From Roseomonas populi (GTDB lineage: Bacteria; Pseudomonadota; Alphaproteobacteria; Acetobacterales; Acetobacteraceae), in the NCBI RefSeq assembly GCF_024594815.1, contig NZ_JANJOU010000001.1, positions 434,001 through 498,000 on the forward strand: a stretch of DNA of 64,000 bases, read 5' to 3'. The translations under genes and the position numbers were made by a program. Below, in pieces: positions 8,610 through 12,987 of the stretch. How positions within the stretch are numbered: the stretch's first letter is position 1; each line of letters begins with the position of its first letter. Below the pieces are notes generated by a model, which ran no database searches, was not told where the DNA came from, and saw nothing but the letters and a program-made list of their open reading frames with translations.

Positions 8610-9704
8610 ATGCCCGCTCCCCATCCCGAAACCTGGATGAAGGTTACGCCCCTCGGCCTCCTCTGCGAGCCGGGGGGTTTCTACGTGGACCCCTCCCGCC
8701 CCGTGGAGCGCGCGGTGGTCAGCCACGGCCATGCCGACCATGCCCGCCCGGGCCACGGGGCGGTGCTGGCCACGCCGGAGACGCTCGCCATCATGCGCGC
8801 CCGCTTTGGCGAGGACCGGGCGGGGGACGAGCAGCAGGCGATGGCTTACGGTGAATCCGTGACCTGCAACGGGGTGCGGATCACGCTGGCCCCGGCGGGG
8901 CACGTTCTCGGCTCGGCCCAGGTGGTGCTGGAATGGCAGGGCAGCCGGATCGTCGTCTCCGGCGACTACAAGCGGCGGCGGGACCCGACCTGCGCGCCCT
9001 TCCTGCCGGTGGAGTGCGACGTCTTCGTCACGGAGGCGACCTTCGCCCTGCCGGTCTTCCGCCACCCGCCGGATTCGCACGAGATCCGCCGCCTGCTGGA
9101 CAGCGTGGCGCTGTTCCCGGAGCGCGCCCATGTCGTCGGCGCCTATGCCCTGGGCAAGACCCAGCGGATTATTGCCCTGCTGCGGGAGGCCGGGTGGGAC
9201 CGGCCTGTCTATCTGCACGGGGCGGTGGAGAAGCTCTGCACCCTCTACGAATCGCTCGGCGTACGGTTGGGCGAGCTGCTGCCGGTGCCGAAGGGACTGA
9301 AGCGCGGGCATCCGCCGATCCTGGCGGGGGAAATCGTGCTGGCGCCGCCCTCCGCGGAGGCGACTCCGTGGGCGCGGCGGCTGGCCGATCCCGTGACCTG
9401 CGCCGCCTCCGGCTGGATGACGGTGCGGCAGCGGGCGAAGCTGCGCGGTGTGGAGCTGCCCCTGATCATCTCCGACCACGCGGACTGGGACGAGCTTCTG
9501 GAGACGATCGAGGAGGTGCGCGCGCCAGAGGTCTGGGTGACGCACGGGCGGGACGACGCGCTGGTCCACGCGCTGGGGCTGCGGGGCGTGCGCGGCCGGG
9601 CCCTGCACCTGGTGGGGCGCGGTGACGAGGAGGATGAGGGCGCGCCGGAGGCCCCGCCGACCGAGGAGGAAGCGGACGCGGCCCGGCGCGGGGCTCCCTC
9701 GTGA
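8610..9704 (+). CDS. Ligase-associated DNA exonuclease (metallo-beta-lactamase / beta-CASP fold)
   Basis: A 364-residue metallo-beta-lactamase-fold protein with the metal motif SHGHADH (residues about 39-45), APAGHVLGSA, SGDYKRRRDP, and late IISDHADWDE and VWVTHGRDD blocks. This matches the ligase-associated exonuclease family, acting on DNA ends in a repair module. The 3' end overlaps the ATP-dependent ligase gene by GTGA, strong evidence that the two products work together. In many proteobacteria the module also includes a large Lhr-type helicase and a calcineurin-like phosphoesterase; neither is beside it here. An internal ATG at 8637 is an alternative start. The last 25 residues are an acidic, Pro/Ala-rich tail. 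Confidence 0.9.
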   Translation: MPAPHPETWMKVTPLGLLCEPGGFYVDPSRPVERAVVSHGHADHARPGHGAVLATPETLAIMRARFGEDRAGDEQQAMAYGESVTCNGVRITLAPAGHVLGSAQVVLEWQGSRIVVSGDYKRRRDPTCAPFLPVECDVFVTEATFALPVFRHPPDSHEIRRLLDSVALFPERAHVVGAYALGKTQRIIALLREAGWDRPVYLHGAVEKLCTLYESLGVRLGELLPVPKGLKRGHPPILAGEIVLAPPSAEATPWARRLADPVTCAASGWMTVRQRAKLRGVELPLIISDHADWDELLETIEEVRAPEVWVTHGRDDALVHALGLRGVRGRALHLVGRGDEEDEGAPEAPPTEEEADAARRGAPS

Positions 9705-11311
9705 GCGTCCAGGCCTTCGCGGACCTGCTGGAACGGCTGGTCTTCACCCCCGGCCGCAACGCCAAGATCGCCCTGATCCGCCGCTGGTTCGCCGAGCAGC
9801 CGGACCCCGACCGCGGCGTCGGCCTGGCCGCGCTGACAGGAGAGCTGGCCTTCACCGCCGCCAAGCCGATGCTGGTGCGCAACCTCGTGGAGAGCCGGGT
9901 GGACCCGGTCCTGCTCGCCCTCTCCCATGATTATGTCGGCGATCTGGCGGAGACGGTGGCGCTGATCTGGCCGGAGCGGGAGGGGGTGAACGCACCGCCG
10001 CCCTCGCTGTCCGAGGTGGTGGAGGGGTTGGAACTCGCTTCCCGGGCCGAGGTGCCGGCCCTGCTCGAAGGCTGGCTGGACACGCTGGACGCCGGCGGGC
10101 GGCTGGCGCTGATCAAGCTCGTCACCGGCGGCCTTCGCGTCGGCGCCTCCGCGAGGCTGGCGAAGACGGCGCTGGCGGAGTGGGCCGGGCAGGAGGTGGG
10201 CGAGATCGAGGAGGTCTGGCACGGTGTCGCGCCGCCCTACATCCCGCTTTTCCGCTGGCTGGAGGGGAATGGTCCGCGTCCTGACGCCGCTGGCGCTCCC
10301 GTCTTCCGCCCGCTGATGCTCGCCCACCCGCTGGAGGCGCCGGCCGACATTGCCGCTGTCGAGGCGAACCCCGGCGACTGGCGGGCGGAGTGGAAGTGGG
10401 ACGGAATCCGCGTGCAGCTCACCGCCGGGCCGGGTGGGCGGCGCATCTGGTCCCGTACGGGGGAGGACATCTCCAACGCCTTCCCCGAGATCGCGGAGGC
10501 GATGGAGTTCCACGCCGTGCTGGACGGGGAATTGCTGGTGATCCGGGACGGCGCGGTGGCGCCCTTCTCGGACCTTCAGCAGCGGCTGAACCGCAAGGTG
10601 ATCGGGCCAAAGCTGATCCGTGACTACCCCGTGGCCGTGCGGCTCTACGATCTGCTGCTGGACGGGGAGGAGGACCTCAGGTCCCTGCCCTACGACGCGC
10701 GCCGCGCGCGGCTCGAGGCCTGGGTGGCGCGCCATGCGCCGGCGCGGATGGACCTGTCCGAGCAGATCCGCTTCGCGGGGCTGGATGAGCTCTCCGCCCT
10801 GCGCGACACGGCGCGGGAGGCCTCGATCGAGGGGCTGATGATCAAGCGCGCGGACAGCGCCTACGTCCCCGGCCGCGTGAAGGGGCTGTGGTGGAAGTGG
10901 AAGCGCGCGCCGCTGACGGTGGACGCCGTGCTGATGTACGCGCAGCGCGGCCACGGAAAGCGCAGCAGCTACTACAGCGACTACACCTTCGGCCTGTGGC
11001 GCACGAACGAGGATGGCACGCGGGAACTGGTGCCCGTGGGCAAGGCCTATTCCGGCTTCACCGATCAGGAACTGATCTTCCTGGACCGTTGGGTGCGCAA
11101 TCACACCACCGGCCGCTTCGGGCCCGTGCGGGAGGTGGAGAAGAGCTTCGTGCTGGAGGTGATTTTCGACGCCGCCCAGCTCTCCACCCGGCATCGCTCC
11201 GGCGTGGCGATGCGGTTCCCCCGCATTGCCCGGCTGCGGCAGGACAAGCCGGCGGAGGAGGCGGACCGGCTGGAGACGTTGCTGGCGATGGTGGAGAACA
11301 AGTCAGCCTAA
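9701..11311 (+). CDS. ATP-dependent DNA ligase (exonuclease-associated type)
   Basis: A 536-residue ligase with an N-terminal helical DNA-binding region (residues about 1-200), an adenylation domain with the nucleotidyl-lysine motif EWKWDGIRVQL (Lys about 232), DGELLVI, EGLMIKRADSAYVPGR and WWKWKRAPLTVDAV, and an OB-fold region ending in VLEVIFDAAQLSTRHRSG. It starts at GTG 9701, overlapping the exonuclease stop. Bacterial ATP-dependent ligases of this clade act in DNA repair alongside the essential NAD-dependent LigA. It ends 3 bp from the convergent HTH-GIY-YIG gene, marking a sharp drop in GC content. Confidence 0.93.
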   Translation: MSVQAFADLLERLVFTPGRNAKIALIRRWFAEQPDPDRGVGLAALTGELAFTAAKPMLVRNLVESRVDPVLLALSHDYVGDLAETVALIWPEREGVNAPPPSLSEVVEGLELASRAEVPALLEGWLDTLDAGGRLALIKLVTGGLRVGASARLAKTALAEWAGQEVGEIEEVWHGVAPPYIPLFRWLEGNGPRPDAAGAPVFRPLMLAHPLEAPADIAAVEANPGDWRAEWKWDGIRVQLTAGPGGRRIWSRTGEDISNAFPEIAEAMEFHAVLDGELLVIRDGAVAPFSDLQQRLNRKVIGPKLIRDYPVAVRLYDLLLDGEEDLRSLPYDARRARLEAWVARHAPARMDLSEQIRFAGLDELSALRDTAREASIEGLMIKRADSAYVPGRVKGLWWKWKRAPLTVDAVLMYAQRGHGKRSSYYSDYTFGLWRTNEDGTRELVPVGKAYSGFTDQELIFLDRWVRNHTTGRFGPVREVEKSFVLEVIFDAAQLSTRHRSGVAMRFPRIARLRQDKPAEEADRLETLLAMVENKSA

Positions 11312-11314
11312 CTA

Positions 11315-12025
11315 TCAAAAGTTTTCCATTCTGACGTTCAGCAGGTCGTTCGCAAAAGACCTCACAATGAGAGCTTCAAGTTTCCCGATAAGCCCATCGG
11401 GCACTTGATACGCGCTCACGTAACTCGCGATGTCGTGAAGTGCTACCGCTTCGCGGACTATGCGCCTCCGCTTCTCCTCGGTACCTTGGAATTCGACACG
11501 ATTGGATGGATGGTTGACGCGCTTTATATTCTGAACCTCACCACGGTCTCTATTGAAAGCGTTGTTCATTTCCGTCCAAAGTGAGAGACGTTGTGCCTTT
11601 CCGGCGTATATCGCTCGTCCCCGGCTATCGTGAAACACGTAGATCCCGTGTGAGCTGTCCAGCCGTTTCTTCAGCCCCGTATAATACGGATGCGGACGAT
11701 CGTTCTCATCTTGACAAGAGAAGATTTGCCAACTTTTCCCCTTCCTTGTTTCTACTGCATCCAAGTAGAAGAATTCAACAATAGGTACAATCGTGTCCTC
11801 AATAAATCTTCTCTCCTTAGAGCGCGCATAGCTCTCCATCAGGTTGAAGATCTGCCTCGGCGTCAGTTGCCCTTTCCTGTAGTTGCCCAGGGCTGGTTGC
11901 GTCACACCAAGCTCTCTCGCCAAGGCTGCGTCCGTCATGGACGCCTGGCCCTTAGATATCGCGATGCGCTGCTTTATCTCCGCGAGAAGATGCTTTCCAT
12001 GCATTTGCACCGCACTCCGATCCAT
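11315..12025 (-). CDS. HTH + GIY-YIG nuclease fusion protein
   Basis: A 236-residue two-part protein. Residues about 18-65 resemble a lambda-repressor/XRE helix-turn-helix (ALARELGVTQPALGNYRKG). Residues about 120-236 contain a GIY-YIG core: HGIYVFHDSRG, then AIYAGKAQRLSLW, and a distal LEALIVRSFANDLLN segment where the catalytic Glu is expected. The Tyr pair and a candidate Glu are present. The catalytic Arg cannot be placed with confidence, because a Trp sits where UvrC-type proteins have it. Codon use and base composition are far more AT-rich (40-50% GC by eye) than in the flanking 70% genes, suggesting recent acquisition. TTG 12031 is an alternative start. The function could be mobile-element, defence or repair related; none is proven. 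Confidence 0.78.
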   Translation of the reverse strand: MDRSAVQMHGKHLLAEIKQRIAISKGQASMTDAALARELGVTQPALGNYRKGQLTPRQIFNLMESYARSKERRFIEDTIVPIVEFFYLDAVETRKGKSWQIFSCQDENDRPHPYYTGLKKRLDSSHGIYVFHDSRGRAIYAGKAQRLSLWTEMNNAFNRDRGEVQNIKRVNHPSNRVEFQGTEEKRRRIVREAVALHDIASYVSAYQVPDGLIGKLEALIVRSFANDLLNVRMENF

Positions 12026-12110
12026 AGCCAAGACAGGTCCAGTCAGCGTATTGCATCCTCATTCGGGGATACAGCGCGGAGACCTGTGCTCAGCGTTAGG
12101 ATCGGGCAGG

Positions 12111-12506
12111 CTAGCTCGCCGGCTTCCCGGGTTCCGGCGTCATCGCCTCGCCGAAATCCGCCATCTCGTAGAGCGGGCGGATCTCGACCTCGCTGGGGCC
12201 GGGCATGGGGTTGGGACAGCGGCGCACCCAGTCCAACGCCTCCTCCATGCTCTTCACCTGCCAGAGCCAGAACCCGGCGACGAGTTCGCCCGTGGCGGCG
12301 AAGGGGCCGTCGATGACCGTGCGGCTCGCGCCGTCGAAGGCCACGCGCTTGCCCTGGGAGGAAGGCTTCAGCCCCTCCCCGGCCAGCAGGATACCGGCCG
12401 CGGCCAGCTCCTCGTTGTAGCGGCCCATCGCCTCCATCAGCTCGGTGGAGGGCATGGTGCCCGCCTCGCTGTCGGCCGTCGCCTTGACCAGGACCATCAC
12501 GCGCAT
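12111..12506 (-). CDS. YCII-domain protein
   Basis: A 131-residue protein starting MRVMVLVKATADSEAG with a YciI-like dimeric alpha/beta fold (AAAGILLAGEGLKPSS, VIDGPFAATGELVAGFWLWQ, EALDWVRRCPNP). Members of this group are small, often His/Asp-containing proteins of poorly defined enzymatic role, frequently encoded with VOC proteins and sometimes with ECF sigma factors. ATG 12506 is chosen because the frame upstream reads into the preceding gene; that placement overlaps the upstream VOC stop region by a few bases and indicates an operon (VOC, VOC, YCII). No ECF sigma factor is present here. Confidence 0.85.
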   Translation of the reverse strand: MRVMVLVKATADSEAGTMPSTELMEAMGRYNEELAAAGILLAGEGLKPSSQGKRVAFDGASRTVIDGPFAATGELVAGFWLWQVKSMEEALDWVRRCPNPMPGPSEVEIRPLYEMADFGEAMTPEPGKPAS

Positions 12507-12510
12507 CGTC

Positions 12511-12987
12511 TCACTCCCCCGCAAAGGCCGCTTCCAGCGGCGCGATCTCGATCTTCACCATGTCCATCATCGCCTGCATCGCGCGGGCGGCAGCCTCGCG
12601 ATCCGGGCTCATCAGCAGTTCCGGCAGCCGCTTCGGGAAGATCTGCCAGCAGACACCGAAGCGGTCCGTCAGCCAGCCGCAGGCCATGGGCGAGCCGCCC
12701 TCGCCCAGCGCGTCCCAGAAGGCGTCCACCTCGGCCTGGTTCTCGCAGGCGACGGATAGGGAGATGGCCGGAGTGAAGCGGTGCTCCGCGCCGCCGTTCA
12801 GGCCCTGCACCTCGTGCCCGTCCAGCCGGGCGGTGGCGAGGAGCACCCCGTCCGGCCCGGCGGGGCCGCCGCGCAGCACCGGGCCGGGCTCCGCCGGGCG
12901 CCCGGCGCGGCGGAAGGCGGCGACGTAGAAGGCGATTGCCTCCTCCGCCTGCCCGTCGAACCAGAGGCAGGTCGCGATGCCTGACAT
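12511..12987 (-). CDS. VOC-superfamily protein, PhnB/3-demethylubiquinone-methyltransferase-like
   Basis: A 158-residue glyoxalase-fold protein beginning MSGIATCLWFDGQAEEAIAF. The PhnB-like signature is clear: FDGQAEEAIAFY near the start, HRFTPAISLSVACENQ in the middle, and DRFGVCWQIFPKRLPELL followed by an AMMDMVKIEI helix at the end. Proteins of this group are metal-fold homologues of glyoxalase and fosfomycin-resistance enzymes, mostly without known substrates. The ATG overlaps the stop of the upstream VOC gene (TGATG), so the two are co-translated. Confidence 0.87.
   Translation of the reverse strand: MSGIATCLWFDGQAEEAIAFYVAAFRRAGRPAEPGPVLRGGPAGPDGVLLATARLDGHEVQGLNGGAEHRFTPAISLSVACENQAEVDAFWDALGEGGSPMACGWLTDRFGVCWQIFPKRLPELLMSPDREAAARAMQAMMDMVKIEIAPLEAAFAGE

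Follow-up and report, generated by a model that had tools for sequence, protein, structure and literature searches.

The question raised by this locus is why a small AT-rich gene, predicted to join a helix-turn-helix (HTH) domain to a GIY-YIG nuclease domain, stands alone in a GC-rich stretch of the Roseomonas populi genome (contig NZ_JANJOU010000001.1 of assembly GCF_024594815.1, positions 434,001 to 498,000; these 64,000 nucleotides are called the window). By comparison with its relatives, the gene was shown to be one open reading frame (ORF) that recurs without shared flanks, in often operonic junctions that are empty in the relatives examined, with a GC content below that of its surroundings and with mostly silent changes. 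The window copy is one such insert, in the gap between a DNA ligase gene (lig) and a YCII-type protein gene. The mobility of the gene is well supported by these comparisons and, because its members sit singly between unrelated genes, in phages and in cassettes, it has the look of a selfish "jumping" nuclease gene. The reading favoured here, with a roughly even chance of being correct, is that of a mobile nuclease of the GIY-YIG superfamily, encoded by a single free-standing gene and probably spreading by intronless homing.

The Gene and Its Reading Frame

11315 to 12004, minus strand: HTH-GIY-YIG gene of 229 residues (ATG at 12002-12004, TGA at 11315-11317; start set by homologues)

The AT-rich island seen in the initial annotation was confirmed, the gene having a GC content of 51.2% compared with a mean of 72.0% (standard deviation 2.9) and a minimum of 61.2% for 2055 overlapping stretches of 690 nt taken from the rest of the window. 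The open frame was likewise found to be real, its stop codon being separated by three bases from that of the convergent ligase gene (TAA, 11309-11311), and the length of 236 residues first given to the protein was revised. That length follows from an alternative in-frame ATG upstream, at 12023-12025; since the homologue starts align at Met8 of the longer form (MHGKHLL..), the gene likely spans 11315-12004 and encodes 229 residues. A start codon stands at the Met8 position in 14 of the 15 HTH-bearing homologues of the 17-row alignment A2 (GTG in locus L003), and the start of L037 is in a slightly different register. Besides the window protein, A2 holds 14 homologues that are near full length by alignment, L036, which has no HTH, and the shorter L037. 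These 16 rows, from Alpha- and Gammaproteobacteria (in the GTDB sense) and from a metagenome-assembled genome (MAG) of Myxococcota, are 31-64% identical, and together with low nonsynonymous distances (dN) against uncomputable synonymous distances (dS) they ruled out a spurious frame. The dN values were 0.09-0.34 in the seven closer pairs tested and dS was returned as -1 (not computable), which was taken as saturation and would indicate purifying selection on the gene. A promoter scan of the window locus, weak evidence as such scans are, gave no match upstream of the gene and a single one inside it.

Single-Gene Inserts at Operon Junctions

When 21 loci and a 13-kb window piece were compared all against all by blastn, similarity was limited to the gene, within about 10 bp, with the exceptions of sdhA/sdhB, common to L014, L015 and L041, and of three short patches unrelated to the gene. 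The neighbours were unrelated between loci, no neighbour gene was constant, and the GC content of the gene (43-56%) was under that of its own flanks in all 19 loci measured. Two core metabolic operons supplied occupied and empty junctions. In L036 the gene lies between soxB (TIGR01373) and soxD (PF04267), separated from the soxB stop by 10 bp and from the soxD start by 2 bp. In two congeners, L065 and L066, soxB and soxD are 9 and 7 bp apart with no insert, giving one occupied and two empty junctions among the three genus genomes searched. A second, distant soxD copy is present in each of these three genomes; a search for the gene at two of these second copies gave no match. The second operon is that of sdhA and sdhB, with inserts in three alphaproteobacterial lineages:

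L014:8004-8669: insert between sdhA and sdhB, Parvibaculum
L015:8001-8663: insert between sdhA and sdhB, Henriciella
L041:680-1381: insert between sdhA and sdhB

Here the gene lies 9-11 bp past the sdhA stop, and the junction was empty in L052-L054, from the family of L041 (one occupied and three empty among the four of five family genomes with an sdhB match). At both the sox site and the sdh site of L041, the gene is an intergenic single gene with an empty site in close relatives, as expected of a free-standing homing endonuclease. No Rfam intron match was obtained in L001, L036 or L041, and the flanking sdh and sox genes end or start at the insert; the sdh and sox inserts therefore lie outside any intron or intein, and a group I intron was rejected. 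The sdh inserts are 34-47% identical, more diverged than the flanking SdhA/SdhB (57-75%, L041 versus the other two), and form one clade with support of 95/92 in an 18-row tree, in a class where no recognisable member was found in 383 of 385 sampled genomes. This pattern is compatible with site-directed spread as well as with a single old insertion that was lost many times. A further insert, in L008, lies between two tandem hsdM-type methylase genes (L008:5340-9171) with a 4-bp overlap on each side. A pattern noticed by eye at the left junctions of the sdh and sox inserts, YAYTRRGG, is just the last codon, the stop codon and ribosome-binding bases, and was not relied on.

Phage and Cassette Settings, and the Passenger and Defence Explanations

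Members were also found on three phage contigs, with a phage tail gene at a distance of about 3 kb (L038), a terminase small subunit gene alongside (L039) and a phage major head gene at most 2 kb away (L040). Two distant members are integron-type cassette genes:

L037:1372-2143: HTH-GIY-YIG gene with attC-like sites before and after it
L072:1234-1853: HTH-GIY-YIG gene with an attC-like site after it

These sites were found by repeats and pattern; an Rfam scan of L037 gave no attC match, and the first attC pattern gave none on L072. The L072 copy is adjoined by a TIR-like gene and a RelA/SpoT-like gene.

Such settings would suit an ordinary horizontally transferred passenger, namely a repair-type nuclease moved by phages, integrons or illegitimate recombination with no mobility of its own: some members are phage cargo, the distant ones are integron-type cassettes, and the GC content is under that of the flanks in 19 of 19 loci. 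Tight single-ORF inserts at stop-codon/start-codon junctions without vehicle DNA, and the occupation of one junction in three lineages, call for a targeting step; the passenger explanation was judged improbable.

The main rival, unlikely but ranked ahead of the passenger, is a solitary anti-phage or anti-plasmid restriction nuclease, in which the HTH would control its own expression or recognise the invader, the GIY-YIG domain would cut, and host protection would account for the spread. Several members do sit in defence-rich surroundings (AbiE, AbiU2, HsdM), but no defence gene was recognised among the examined neighbours of at least seven members (window, L014, L015, L036, L041, L009 and L004/L034), and there is no constant partner gene. 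A PADLOC-DB 2.0.0 scan of 16 members gave no convincing match, the best E-value being 3.3e-4 (UzuA) and five of the 16 matching at E up to 0.01; a known defence protein was set aside on this basis. Insertion into sdh and sox operons would be odd for a defence gene, and phages also carry members. The UzuA family was not found described in the open-licence papers searched.

Domain Architecture and Fold

11876 to 11998, minus strand: Cro/C1-type HTH domain (residues 3-43; predicted helices 3-18, 25-32 and 36-43)
11327 to 11689, minus strand: GIY-YIG-fold domain (residues 106-226; GIY Y122, YAGK Y133 and K136, helix W143 and E145, Glu E210, Asn N223)

The fusion of an HTH to a GIY-YIG domain, proposed from the window sequence alone, was borne out by the profiles of the relatives, by family and profile-profile comparison and by the predicted fold. 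The N-terminal domain has a Cro/C1-type HTH fold, the structural neighbours of its model being HigA2 and phage repressors, and a profile match, which was weak when the window protein was taken by itself (E = 0.013 to Pfam HTH_37, not reaching the cut-off) and stronger in relatives (HTH_3, 1.3e-8, and Phage_CI_repr, 1.9e-6, best of 17 members). For the C-terminal half, no match reached a curated cut-off: Pfam GIY-YIG matched four of the 17 members (best E = 0.071), NCBIfam UvrC and DEDD-exonuclease models matched the window protein at 0.00036-0.1, and the family profile run against PDB sequences reached UvrC at only 0.09-0.29. The predicted fold is UvrC-like and places the domain in the GIY-YIG fold, an assignment supported by the family-profile searches and the profile-profile comparison.

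A viral-structure search with the model yielded no match with an E-value of 0.001 or below. The fifth-ranked weak match, BFVD A0A8S5RX13 (195 columns, E = 0.098), is a protein of 268 residues from Siphoviridae sp. ctEJG5, named GIY-YIG domain-containing protein, and may share the two-domain architecture.

Active-Site Residues and the Dead-Regulator Explanation

Ten residues were invariant in the 16-row alignment A5, namely E77, G120, Y122, Y133, G135, S197, Y199, E210, R215 and N223. The GIY...YIG beta-hairpin motif is present with both tyrosines (G120, Y122, Y133 and G135 in 16/16), as are the metal-binding glutamate and the later asparagine (E210 and N223 in 16/16). Since the hhalign alignment is limited to residues 108-155, the equivalence of the last two is drawn from the fold and the spacing; E210 and N223 are 13 apart, versus 12 in UvrC. 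The arginine of the first helix after YIG corresponds to R39 in UvrC and R27 in I-TevI. The invariant UvrC arginine was aligned by hhalign with E145, in a column that is Glu in 15 of the 16 members. A two-residue gap leaves the register slightly uncertain, and without it the arginine would fall on W143 (Trp in 13/16, Arg in L072). The sole member with Arg at the UvrC catalytic-Arg column is L036:1498-1998, which has no HTH and lies between soxB and soxD. The initial annotation had expected two tyrosines, an arginine and a distal glutamate to form the site; the tyrosines and the glutamate are there in all 16 aligned members, and the arginine is absent at the aligned position. An arginine and the metal-chelating glutamate are given as conserved, catalytically important residues of the GIY-YIG fold in an excerpt of PMC9071465.

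The glutamate in the E145 column would fit a DNA-binding regulator that has lost GIY-YIG catalysis and uses the domain only for binding DNA or a ligand. Both tyrosines, the Glu and the Asn are nevertheless invariant in 16/16 despite identities down to 24%, and there is no constant neighbour gene to regulate; this explanation, the last of the three rivals, was considered very unlikely. It is possible that R152, R180 or R215 replaces the first-helix arginine, and from the conserved residues we infer nuclease activity for the family.

Intronless Homing as the Proposed Mechanism

Under the favoured reading of a free-standing homing nuclease, the N-terminal Cro/C1-type HTH would recognise a DNA site and aim the protein, and might also act as a repressor of its own gene. 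The GIY-YIG domain at the C-terminus would cut the allele without the gene, and repair templated by the occupied allele would copy the gene in, as for the seg genes of T4. A gene placed between one stop codon and the following start would be able to use the host operon promoter and ribosome-binding region, as in several T4 free-standing endonucleases. A more specific proposal is advanced with less assurance: that the family comprises proteobacterial chromosomal intronless homing endonucleases with a phage-repressor-type HTH as the aiming module and a Trp/Glu pair in place of the catalytic Arg, colonising, in different lineages, the stop/start junctions in operons of core metabolism (sdhAB, soxBD), and travelling as well in phages and integron cassettes.

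Several observations weigh against homing. Cleavage and homing are inferred here from sequence, with no event observed. The first-helix arginine after YIG aligns with Glu in 15/16 members and with Arg in L036 alone (A5), and the domain may lack activity or rely on a different residue. One member, the same L036, has no HTH, and the domain order is the reverse of that of I-TevI. Empty sdhA|sdhB relatives are documented for L041 only, not for L014 or L015, and the grouping of the sdh copies also fits one ancient insertion followed by many losses. Among the loci compared, no junction besides sdhA|sdhB was occupied twice; no common target motif was found for the window gene's own clade; and a clean empty lig|YCII site was not seen, both sister species carrying other DNA there. 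Finally, AbiE, AbiU2, HsdM or TIR-like neighbours in four loci fit a defence gene.

Comparison with Known Systems

UvrB-binding, EndoV and HhH parts belong to UvrC. The family has none of them; it also differs from the N-terminal endonuclease domain of UvrC, and from the DEDD-exonuclease/Cho relatives, in being rare and mobile and in having no arginine at the column of the invariant UvrC residue. Compared with the GIY-YIG restriction enzymes Eco29kI and PD-T4-3, the window gene has no methyltransferase beside it, and the family has an N-terminal HTH and no strong PADLOC match. The likeness to SegA-SegG of phage T4 lies in the GIY-YIG domain and in a single gene placed in an intergenic region between conserved genes; an excerpt of PMC2988022 places the T4 free-standing endonucleases between conserved genes, several being promoter-less on host polycistronic messages. 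Unlike the Seg proteins, the family is found mostly on bacterial chromosomes and not in one phage group, its HTH is N-terminal (Cro/C1-type) and its GIY-YIG domain C-terminal, and its first-helix Arg is not conserved. The HTH of I-TevI is C-terminal according to excerpts of PMC10448857 and PMC1564403, and the I-TevI/Seg-type order, N-terminal GIY-YIG followed by a C-terminal DNA-binding module, is reversed in the family (HTH 3-43, then GIY-YIG 106-226). A GIY-YIG nuclease cassette, orf6, is carried by the integron of Aeromonas sp. 3925 (excerpt of PMC10609294); as an attC cassette it is likened to L037 and L072 by this setting alone.

Each ingredient of the family is already known. Because HTH and winged HTH (wHTH) are listed among the domains found with GIY-YIG (PMC1564403, Figure 1 legend), the bare fusion is not new in principle. 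A family with an N-terminal HTH and a C-terminal GIY-YIG domain, chromosomal operon junctions and the missing arginine was not found described in the open-licence papers searched, and the family is apparently rare and undescribed. Free-standing homing endonucleases are best documented in phages; if the homing reading is true, a chromosomal family found more than once between subunits of one respiratory enzyme would bring intronless homing into the core genomes of bacteria, provide a natural fusion of an HTH to a GIY-YIG domain whose order is the reverse of that in I-TevI, and probe whether the supposedly essential arginine of the superfamily is replaceable. Since the sdhA|sdhB and soxB|soxD sites exist in both empty and occupied form and could serve as substrates as they stand, the question can be tested directly.

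The Window Locus

9701 to 11311, plus strand: cisplatin damage response ATP-dependent DNA ligase (TIGR04120, E = 3e-241), left of the gene and convergent with it, outside the element
12111 to 12524, minus strand: YCII-type protein gene, co-oriented, 106 bp upstream of the nuclease gene, outside the element
11301 to 12133, no strand: 833-bp segment that is absent here from species G006 and G013

The YCII label is that of the initial annotation, NCBIfam at 1e-5 having given no match. Homology between the window and the compared species ends at 11300 and restarts at 12134, both points falling within the final codons of the flanking genes, lig and the YCII gene. The ligases of G006 and G013 are the most similar to that of the window (96-97%), and both species keep lig and the YCII gene; the gap holds a lipoprotein-like gene in G006 (a reading of the sequence, with no NCBIfam match) and about 1.5 kb of other sequence in G013. 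By this comparison the lig|YCII gap is a variable junction. Its content differs across the three most similar species (window 11301-12133; L020; L019/L056).

The ligase and the exonuclease beside it (TIGR04122) are an ordinary ligase-associated pair in NCBIfam. Of the two options first offered for the placement beside this pair, coincidence or a repair/defence hotspot, coincidence was favoured: the ligase was found in 15/15 genomes of the genus and the relatives of the gene adjoin unrelated genes, so the association looks like a chance one. A functional partnership was set aside since the neighbours change from locus to locus. Transposon or insertion sequence cargo was also rejected, with no direct or terminal inverted repeats around the window gene and three inverted pairs all inside it, as was a tRNA-associated island, the two tRNAs of the window lying 17 and 45 kb from the gene. 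The window locus also gave no Rfam intron match. An insertion sequence-like transposase, identified by reading its sequence, lies near one member, L011.

Distribution and Sampling

The genome samples of genus, family, order, class and phylum overlap in part. The presence of the gene proved sporadic and far from general among relatives: it was found in 1/15 genomes of the genus (its own, and absent from the other 14), 2/299 of the family, 2/385 of the class (its own and L041; 383 without a recognisable member) and 4/398 of the phylum sample (its own, L035, L036 and L037). The other eight class-sample matches were seven UvrC-sized frames and a different frame with a GIY-YIG motif (L048). In the other samples, the gene was present in 1/5 genomes of the order of G889 and 1/292 in that of G667, and the class of G693 (369 genomes) gave six matches, namely the close L035, the distant HTH-GIY proteins L072 and L074 (their HTH read from the alignment by eye) and three UvrC-sized frames. 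A scan of GTDB species genomes yielded 14 loci from 47 pattern matches (L007 and L013 being two pieces from one MAG), and IMG/VR yielded L038-L040. No match was obtained in PLSDB plasmids or INPHARED phages with the window protein alone as query, nor in a viral scan with L014. A 28-residue match, L050, was not used.

The lowest identity between a member and the window protein was 24%. The GC count holds 19 rows, the tree 18, and alignments A1, A2 and A5 hold 12, 17 and 16, respectively. L012 (5'-truncated), L013 and L017/L040 (partial) were excluded from the GC count and the tree, and L007 (broken frame) was kept in the former and left out of the latter; L016 was counted once with L038 (one contig), as was L034 with L004 (same neighbourhood and protein). 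Two of these are decayed or interrupted copies: L012:7929-8317, 5'-truncated, in Rhizobium tropici, and L007:8001-8516 with L013:115-354, a copy divided between two contigs of a Rhodopila MAG.
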